This document shows, piece by piece, positions 13,653-44,500 of a stretch of 64,000 bases of DNA. The stretch spans positions 62,001-126,000 of the forward strand of contig WGME01000009.1 in NCBI GenBank assembly GCA_016125225.1, given 5' to 3'. A model generated the notes under the pieces. The model did no database searches. It saw only the letters and a program-made list of their open reading frames with translations, and was not told where the DNA came from. The position numbers and the translations under genes were made by a program. This stretch comes from a bacterium (GTDB lineage: Bacteria; Planctomycetota; Planctomycetia; Planctomycetales; Planctomycetaceae). Position 1 is the first letter of the stretch; the number at the start of each line of letters is the position of its first letter.

Positions 13653-13727
13653 GGCGGCAGATCCCGGGAAAGTGGTCGATTCCAGTGTAACGCGAACCGC
13701 AGCGGTTTGGCTCACGGTTTTCACGTT

Positions 13728-13821
13728 CGTCTTAGCCCCGCGTCAATGACGCGGGGTCGAGCGCTCCGGATGTGATCCATAGAACACATCCCCCCGGTCT
13801 AAATGACCGGGGGCTAAGACG
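13728..13821. repeat. 94-bp compound palindrome (three hairpins inside an outer stem)
   Basis: An outer 12-base perfect inverted repeat (13728-13739 and 13810-13821, CGTCTTAGCCCC and GGGGCTAAGACG) encloses three hairpins. These are 13736-13756 (10-bp stem CCCCGCGTCA, one-base loop), 13768-13791 (GGATGTG/CACATCC) and 13791-13813 (9-bp stem CCCCCGGTC, 5-base loop). It lies between the coiled-coil gene stop and the kinase start, both on the minus strand. It could terminate the upstream transcript, stall ribosomes or polymerase, or be a REP/BIME-type repeat. Some arms overlap, so alternative folds compete. Confidence 0.8.
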
Positions 13822-13826
13822 ATCGA

Positions 13827-40409: not shown

Positions 40410-41126
40410 CTACGGAATAATATACGCCAACCCCAGGACGGCTTTGCCTTGAAGCAAGGCCCCTTTCAGACTGAGCGGGACCAGATAGGTCCGATAGGGG
40501 ACGCAGCTTCCAGGACGATCATCGCCCAGCGTATAGATTTCTACCCACGGATAATCGACACCCATCATGTAGGGCACCGCTGCAACGCGGCCGTAGAAGT
40601 GCGCGGCGGAAACAAACGGCTGCAGCAGTTCGTCTTCCGGCATCCACGCACACAGGCCGGTGTTACAGGTCAGCTTGTTGTGCTTGAGTCCCGGCGCACC
40701 GTAATAGTAACCCATCCGTTCGAGATTGGGCTCTTCAAAGTACAACGGGCGATGTCGCATCGCCGAGGCTTCCCAGTCGAACGGCTCGAGGCACCAGCCG
40801 CGTCCCAGTCCACCGGGTTGAGGTGCGACACCCGCTTCAGCCAGCCGAGGTCGAGCCAGATTTTCTGGAGCATTCAGTGTGGGTGCCGACAGGCTCGCCT
40901 GCAGATCGCCGATCGGCCGATCTTGCAGCAGCGCATCGGTCACACTCGATTTAACCGCTGCGGGGGAAGATTCCGCAGGGACGGGGGGTAATGCATCTTG
41001 GGCCGACAACGCCGACCCCTGGCCCACTTCTGCGAGCCCGAACAGTCCAAGCATGACGATGCGGCAAATCGTGACCCAAGTGGGCCTGGCAGTAGCAGAG
41101 GGTGAATTGAAGTGAATTGACTGCAT
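40410..41126 (-). CDS. secreted planctomycete-type protein of unknown function
   Basis: About 238 residues from the ATG at 41126 (GGAGGGG nine bases upstream; a GTG lies one codon earlier). A signal peptide (WVTICRIVMLGLFGLAEVGQG) leads to a Pro/Ala-rich segment of about 65 residues, then a compact domain beginning GRGWCLEPFDWEASAMRHRP and continuing RPLYFEEPNLERMGYYYG. Several Cys (CLEPF, CNTGLCAW, GSCVPY) could form disulfides. The motif RPLYFEEPNLERMG looks like one I associate with planctomycete surface proteins, but I cannot name the family. It is divergent from the giant gene. Confidence 0.7.
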   Translation of the reverse strand: MQSIHFNSPSATARPTWVTICRIVMLGLFGLAEVGQGSALSAQDALPPVPAESSPAAVKSSVTDALLQDRPIGDLQASLSAPTLNAPENLARPRLAEAGVAPQPGGLGRGWCLEPFDWEASAMRHRPLYFEEPNLERMGYYYGAPGLKHNKLTCNTGLCAWMPEDELLQPFVSAAHFYGRVAAVPYMMGVDYPWVEIYTLGDDRPGSCVPYRTYLVPLSLKGALLQGKAVLGLAYIIP

Positions 41127-41338
41127 CACAAGGCCCCTCCGGAACCCGGCCGGATGAAGTTACGATCGGACTATGTCCTTTCGTTGTTCGTCTTGTCACG
41201 GCTGCTGCAACCAGTTCATTCCGACTTCCAGGTAAAAGCTGCCCAATCGACAAGGTTTTACGCAACAATTGAAGTGCGAGTGAATCGCCGCAGTCCGGGT
41301 GTCGTACAGTAGTCGATAGACGATTCGGGCAAGAAGTA

Positions 41339-41369
41339 TTGGACATCGATTCCCCGGCGACTTTAGACT
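41339..41369 (+). promoter_or_regulatory. candidate promoter of the giant gene
   Basis: TTGGAC at 41339-41344 and TTTAGA at 41362-41367 are separated by 17 bases. This is a fair but unproven sigma70-like pair. It would give a leader of roughly 185 bases that includes the hairpins at 41426-41535. Confidence 0.3.
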
Positions 41370-41425
41370 AAATCACATCGCTGGGTGGATTTGTACACTT
41401 TTTGTGGGGCCCCCTAACTCCACCG

Positions 41426-41535
41426 GAAGCTGATGCGTTCAGCTTCTTCTTCGACCCATGCCAGCGCGCACGGTGCGTGACCGTTGCCGCGCGGCAACGG
41501 CGAAGTGGGGTGATTTGCCGGTTACCGTGGGTAAC
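41426..41535 (+). promoter_or_regulatory. hairpin-rich leader before the giant gene
   Basis: Three strong inverted repeats lie within 110 bases, ending about 25 bases before the start. They are GAAGCTGA/TCAGCTTC (41426-41446, 5-base loop), the perfect 20-bp palindrome CCGTTGCCGC+GCGGCAACGG (41481-41500), and GTTACC-GTG-GGTAAC (41521-41535). GGGGCCCC at 41406-41413 is a further small palindrome. I do not recognise any known riboswitch. The block could be a structured 5' UTR or a protein-binding site. Confidence 0.5.
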
Positions 41536-41560
41536 TCGACAGGTCGGGGAACACAGCGAC

Positions 41561-44500
41561 ATGCCGATAGCGCAATGGTTTCAGCAGTGGCTTTCGTCAC
41601 GGCGGGTTCGCTCCGCGCCGCACGATCCCCTTGCGCCCTATGCCCAACTCAGCGTGCAGCGGCTGGAAGACCGCCGCGTGTTGTCGGTCTCTGTAACCAC
41701 ACCGACAATGACGGATGTTGTCGTCGATATCACCGGGATGGACGACGTCACCATTTCATTTGATGGTGTCGACACGCTCACGATCGACAGCCTGGATGAT
41801 GGTACCGATACGACCATCATGTTTGACCCCACGATGCAGTCGTTGATCATTAATGGCGACAACATTGATGTGCAGACGGTGACGCTGACCGGGATGGACA
41901 CCCTCAGCCTGGTTTCGCTGACAATTACCGACGGCGTCGATGATCTCGATATCAATACCACGGTCGCGGCATCTCAAAACATCTCGATCGATGTCGCCAA
42001 CACAATTGACATCGGTGCGTCGGGCGGGCTGACGACCACCACCGGCAGCATCACTCTCGAAGCCGGTATGGGGATCACCCAGAACGCCGCGGCCACCATC
42101 GATTCCGGCATGGAGGTGCACCTCACGAGCCTGAATGGCAACATTCAGACAGGAATTATTACCGCGGTCGATGATATCCAACTGACGACCGATAATGGTT
42201 CGGTGACCACGGACGGGGCGTTGGATGCGGGGGGACTGGTCGATATCGATGCCCTCTCCGTGACGATCAACAGCACCATTGATGCCGATGGCATGGTCAC
42301 CATCGACGCCACCGATGGGGCGATTACGGTCTCCGATACCATCTCCGCCGGCAACGACATTGATCTGACTGCCGAGGGAGCCACCGGCAGCATCACGGTC
42401 AACGGCGGCGCGACCGTGACCACCATCGGTAGCGACATTCGCCTCTTTGCCGATCAGACGATTCACATCAGCGCTGATGTCATGACCGACGGCATGGGCA
42501 CCATCACCTTGAGCGGCCATTCCGGGGCGATGGATGAAGGCGCTCTCAATATTTTCATCGATAACGACGCCACCATCAGCACAGAAAACGGCGATCTCAC
42601 GCTGGATGCCGATCAGGGCACCCAGCAGGCGGGAACCTTCAGTGGCATCGTGATCGATGGTATGGGCACCTCGGTGGAAGTCACGGGCACCGGCAGCTTG
42701 AGCCTGTACGGCCGCGGTGGTGACGATACGGCGAATCAGCACGGCATCGTCATTCAAAATGGGGCCATGGTGACTGCGGGAACCACCGGAACCGCAGTGA
42801 TCGAAGGGTTCGGCGGCACTCTCTCCTCCTCGGCTGTCGGCGTGATGGTGACTGGTCCGAATTCGGCCCTCACATCCTCTGGCGCGAACGTGGAAGTGAG
42901 CGGTGAAGGTGGCGGCAACGGAGGGTTTGGATTTGGTGTGTACGTCGTTGATGGCGGGCAAATCAGCGCGACAGGGGCTGGTTCCGTCACCGTGGCAGGA
43001 ACGGGCGGAACCGGAGCGGGCCTCGCCAACATCGGCGTCTTCGTCACCGGTACTAATTCTCTGATCACTGCCAGCGGCGGAGACGTGGAAGTCACGGGCA
43101 TTGAAGGCGGTGGCGCTTCAGCCGTGGCTATCGGTGTTGCCTCGGAAGGGACCATTTCTCAGACCAGCAACGGCCAGATCACATTGATCGGCGACAGCCT
43201 GACCATCGACGATCTCTCGTTTGTCGATGCCGGGACGGGAACGGTCAGCATCCAGCAGTACACAAGTACGGTCGAAATCGACCTGGGTTCGACCAGCGAT
43301 GTCGCAGGCGGACCGCTGGCGATCTCCAGCGACGAACTTGCCCGCATTACCGCTGGAACGCTGGTCATCGGTGATGCGAATTCCGGCACCATTACGATTT
43401 CGGATGCCATCGATCTGTCCACAATATCGACGCTGGAGTTGATCACCACCGCCGATATCTTTGATGGAAACGCCACCGGCATCGACATCACCGTGGCCAG
43501 CCTCGTGCTGGTGGCGGGGACAGGGATCGGCAGCAGCGATGCCCTGGAACTGGCGGTCACCAATCTTGCCTTCCGTAATACTGCCTCCGGCGATGTGCAG
43601 ATTGAGAACACCGGGGCACTCACCCTCACCACCGTGGGGACTCTGGATGGCACGACGGGTTTTGAGCTGGGCAACTTGGGGGGCGGCACCACAGCAGTCA
43701 CTGCTCATAGTCCGGTGACCATCGCGGCCGACGTCACCTCCGTCGGTTCCATGACCATTACGGCCGGCGAATCCAATGATGCCCCAAATTACGATGACGA
43801 TCTGACGATCAATACCGGTGTCACCGTTTCCGTGACCGGGGGAGCTTCTGAGCTTATTCTGCAGGCCGGTGATGATGTCATCATCGACGGGGCCGCGACT
43901 TCGAATCTTAATCTCATTGTGACGGCCGGGTTCAATGACCTGGACAGCAGCGGAGCGATCGTGCTGTCGGGCACATTAACAGCCACAGAACTTACCACTC
44001 TAACAGCGGTCACGGGGATCACCGATTCCACCGGGGCGCTCATCACCACCAGCGAACTGGAAATCCTCGGCAGTGGTGATGTCATCCTCGATGAAGAGCA
44101 TCAGACCGCGTATCTCGCGGCGAATCTGGATGGTGCCCTGACCTATCTGGATGCCGATGGATTTGATGTATCCCTCATCGACACGACGAACGGCATCACG
44201 TTAACGGCGAATACCGCGGAACTGCACCTCACAACCACCACCGGCGTAATCGGTCTCGATGCCAATGTCACCACGGACGGCAACCAGTTCTACCACAGTG
44301 ATGTTGAACTGCTGACCGACGTTGCTCTCGCGGCCAATTCGGGCAACATCGATTTCGAGGGAACCGTCGATGGCGCTTATCAACTCAGCATCACCTCCGG
44401 AAACGACGTTACGTTTGATTTAGCTGTCGGTTCAACGGATGAACTCGGGTCCATCGATATCAACGTCTCTGGCAAGGTTACGGTCAGCGACGCCGTGCAA

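Follow-up and report, generated by a model that had tools for sequence, protein, structure and literature searches.

The palindrome cluster ahead of the 21.5-kb giant gene exceeds chance for this stretch's composition and coincides with an unusually stable predicted fold, behind a promoter sequence that recurs in relatives, and its stems are not conserved. The window, as the whole 64-kb stretch of DNA analysed is called here, probably contains at this point an ordinary, rapidly diverging structured 5′ UTR, transcribed from a recurring sigma70-type promoter, with any action most likely generic. Neither a conserved riboswitch nor a regulon operator finds support.

Under this favoured reading, the transcript of the giant gene would start from the sigma70-type promoter at 41340–41369 and carry a 5′ UTR of about 185 nt, folding into a stable three-way junction and a hairpin just ahead of the start codon. 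The fold would act generically, if at all, slowing 5′ decay of the 21.5-kb mRNA and tuning ribosome loading; ligand sensing or binding of a dedicated regulator would be a less likely role for the leader than such generic action. Structured 5′ UTRs of bacterial mRNAs are generic stabilising or translation-tuning leaders. The window leader resembles them in its length behind a sigma70-type promoter, its stable stems and the hairpin near the start codon, whereas here the transcript and any effect on stability or translation are predictions.

Predicted promoter, start codon and locus

The predicted promoter follows the pattern TGGACA-N15/16-TTTAG[AC]CT, found at 17 sites in 170 genomes of the family. 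Genomes G000, G002 and G026 possess exactly one such site each, always upstream of a giant gene, and G026 shares this arrangement with the other two despite belonging to another genus. Many of the other family matches examined sit shortly before unrelated open frames, so the pattern looks like a generic promoter type. From the recurring promoter we predict a transcription start near 41376, which probably places the hairpins inside the 5′ UTR of the giant gene mRNA. The earlier note had assigned them to the leader of this gene, and both the recurring upstream promoter and the orthologue-matched start at 41561 make that assignment plausible.

G002, of the same genus, contains the true orthologous locus, with the same N-terminus and the same divergent neighbour. 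The open frame of the giant gene extends up to a TTG at 41402; homology with relatives begins at the ATG at 41561, and in the G002 orthologue an in-frame stop precedes the ATG by 10 codons. A coding leader read from the TTG was rejected on these grounds, and the palindromes are most likely non-coding. The conserved N-terminus ends in RLEDRRVLS, a motif common to other giants of the family. Searches of Pfam and NCBIfam yielded no family match for the scanned parts of the protein.

All 29 planctomycete genomes available at the time are reported to carry giant genes (PMC5177795), and the gene downstream of the window leader, at 21.5 kb, resembles them. A term search of that paper turned up nothing on promoters or upstream regions. 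For one planctomycete giant gene, the present analysis supplies a predicted promoter and a start codon, both backed by sequence.

Table 1. Features of the giant gene locus (coordinates of the window).
Feature	Position	Strand	Remarks
Divergent neighbouring gene	40410–41126	−	Divergent in G002 too; marks the conserved locus
Predicted sigma70-type promoter TGGACA-N18-TAGACT (= TGGACA-N16-TTTAGACT)	41340–41369	+	Extended −10 CTTTAGACT
Predicted 5′ UTR, about 185 nt, unusually stable fold	41376–41560	+	MFE −84.4 kcal/mol, z −3.3
Inverted repeat GGTGGATTT / AACTCCACC	41384–41392 with 41416–41424	+	Fifth pairing; 8/9 pairs, 23 nt between arms
Palindrome GGGGCCCC	41406–41413	+	CCCC can pair with GGGG at 41546–41549
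Predicted three-way junction around two main hairpins	41417–41511	+	MFE and centroid nearly agree
Hairpin GAAGCTGA-TGCGT-TCAGCTTC	41426–41446	+	5-nt loop; best-defined stem, −13.1 kcal/mol alone
Perfect 20-bp palindrome CCGTTGCCGCGCGGCAACGG	41481–41500	+	10-bp arms, no loop
Hairpin GTTACC-GTG-GGTAAC	41521–41535	+	3-nt loop; 25 nt ahead of the start codon
Giant gene, ATG start, 21.5 kb	41561–63061	+	Start agrees with the G002 orthologue of the same genus

Palindromes and predicted fold of the leader

Four palindromes within 41406–41535, including the perfect 20-bp one, had been described before and were found exactly where they had been placed (Table 1). The inverted repeat adds a fifth pairing, and its 3′ arm also pairs with 41505–41511 in the MFE fold. 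The rarity of the palindrome arms was assessed by dinucleotide shuffling, with the palindromes picked after the fact: a 10-bp arm arose in none of 2000 shuffles of 41376–41560 and two arms of at least 8 bp in 0.05% of them, the corresponding figures for the whole intergenic region being 0.4% and 0.2%. Since this test was chosen post hoc, a few equally palindromic leaders should be expected by chance across the 6.35-Mb genome. Base composition alone leads to an estimate of about 8 perfect 20-bp palindromes in the whole genome.

Stability of the leader is above the expectation from its composition, as in a generic structured 5′ UTR. The MFE fold of 41417–41537 (121 nt, z −3.2) consists of the three-way junction and a hairpin at 41520–41536; z-scores of −3.2 or lower occur in about 1.6% of 256 background stretches of the 64-kb window, and the whole leader at 41376–41560 (z −3.3 against shuffles) belongs roughly to the top 2% of the stretches sampled. 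The 20-bp palindrome forms no hairpin of its own in the predicted fold, its arms pairing with neighbouring sequence instead. A weak Shine–Dalgarno (SD)-like GGGG at 41546–41549 is predicted to be paired and can pair with the CCCC of GGGGCCCC. The minus strand of the leader reaches a z-score of −4.3 versus −3.3 for the plus strand; because both strands fold equally well, the leader sequence bears no sign of selection at the RNA level, and the excess folding stability could reflect palindromes at the DNA level rather than RNA. A GC-rich stem followed by a T run was found nowhere in 41100–41700, and an intrinsic terminator or attenuator was rejected on this basis.

Conservation of the leader and alternative readings

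The leader of the G002 orthologue is also strongly folded (z −3.9), above the background of its own region. The stems of the window leader are absent from it, the two leaders do not align, and their predicted fold shapes are no more similar to each other than to shuffles. G002 is the sole same-genus orthologue in the collections searched: the third genome of the genus (G001) yielded no match to the N-terminus of the giant gene, and a search of genome contigs for further close relatives returned only G002, with no hits among viral contigs. Apart from the window, a covariance model built on the fold of this single sequence retrieved just one match from the 170 family genomes, weak and partial (G062, E 0.027). 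The earlier note had made its proposal depend on stems kept in close relatives, and as far as the single relative shows they are absent; the covarying homologues that it suggested looking for did not appear in convincing form with this model in the family genomes. Neither the one same-genus orthologue nor the 170 genomes provided a conserved or covarying stem. A striking palindrome cluster can evidently occupy a leader without any stem conservation.

These results bear on the possibility that the leader is functionless, being one of the few GC-rich palindromic leaders that a 6.35-Mb genome would contain by chance. Its unconserved stems, the similar fold z-scores elsewhere in the window and the post hoc choice of palindromes are all compatible with such an origin. 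However, the shuffle statistics are strong and the orthologous G002 leader is unusually stable as well, and we regard chance as an unlikely explanation.

That both orthologous leaders are structured may hint at more than a generic function. One reading of this kind is a lineage-specific cis-regulatory RNA, in which the three-way junction would hide or expose the start region in response to a signal, the SD-like GGGG at 41546–41549 pairing with GGGGCCCC. The well-defined fold, the paired SD-like bases and the highly structured G002 leader are consistent with this mechanism. However, neither stems nor shape are conserved, no homologue emerged from the 170 genomes, a U-tract terminator and an Rfam match are lacking, plus-strand folding is not in excess and the SD-like motif is weak; taken together, this makes such an RNA distinctly improbable. 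We further speculate, with comparably little confidence, that in this genus the leaders of giant surface-protein genes remain strongly folded although their stems turn over fast, selection acting on stability and not on shape. If true, leader folding would act generically, as a brake on very long mRNAs or as their stabiliser.

The compact multi-branch fold predicted for the window leader recalls the riboswitches and cis-regulatory RNAs collected in Rfam 15. Unlike these, it has no conserved or covarying homologue, and no Rfam 15 family matched it; membership in a known RNA family was rejected accordingly.

Copies of the palindromes within the genome were also sought. The hairpin at 41426–41446 is unique at up to 3 mismatches, and the 20-mer at 41481–41500 has only two weak 3-mismatch copies elsewhere, near the control level. 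A regulon operator, with the same palindrome ahead of several genes of the genome, was rejected, as neither sequence recurs beyond chance. An operator private to the giant gene, with the 20-bp palindrome binding a dimeric repressor as a roadblock about 105 bp past the predicted start, would fit its perfect symmetry, rare in shuffles, the equal folding of both strands and the divergent intergenic region, but appears very unlikely given the near-control number of genomic copies, its absence from the G002 orthologue and a position unusually far downstream of the promoter.

Comparison with further giant-gene leaders

Folding of 38 giant-gene leaders produced z-scores mostly between about −2 and +1, with those of G124, G149 and G168 also low. 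These scores do not support leader structure as a trait common to giant genes, since most of the 38 leaders are not unusually stable. With stems unconserved, no relative in the covariance-model or Rfam searches, no genomic repeats beyond chance and most other giant-gene leaders not unusually structured, the earlier suggestion of a specific structured RNA element or operator finds no support, and we continue to favour a generic structured 5′ UTR. Proof that leader folding controls giant genes would be relevant to the question of how bacteria sustain the cost of mRNAs above 20 kb.

Genus g38 (leaders L058–L071) possesses a promoter-like sequence TTGACAT...AAAGATAAT, with small changes, upstream of the giant gene in 8 of 11 aligned leaders. 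An AAGGAG SD before the GTG start is likewise conserved in many of the g38 leaders compared, while the leader between the promoter-like site and the SD has diverged, in keeping with the favoured reading; the leaders are mostly not unusually structured.

Two related giant genes, in G124 and G168, have strong leader hairpins (L016 and L035; z −4.1 and −2.5). One of the hairpins, AAGTTGCGCA/TGCGCAACTT, pairs best in G124; another, GTCAGGGGACGCCCTGAC, is present in both leaders.

A separate element in the window, at 13727–13826, is a REP/BIME-like dispersed element made up of two strong hairpins of the TTAGCCCC...GGGG type, inverted relative to each other. Its pattern occurs at 9 genome sites with at most 3 mismatches versus 0 for the reversed control, and these sites carry compensatory changes in the stem.
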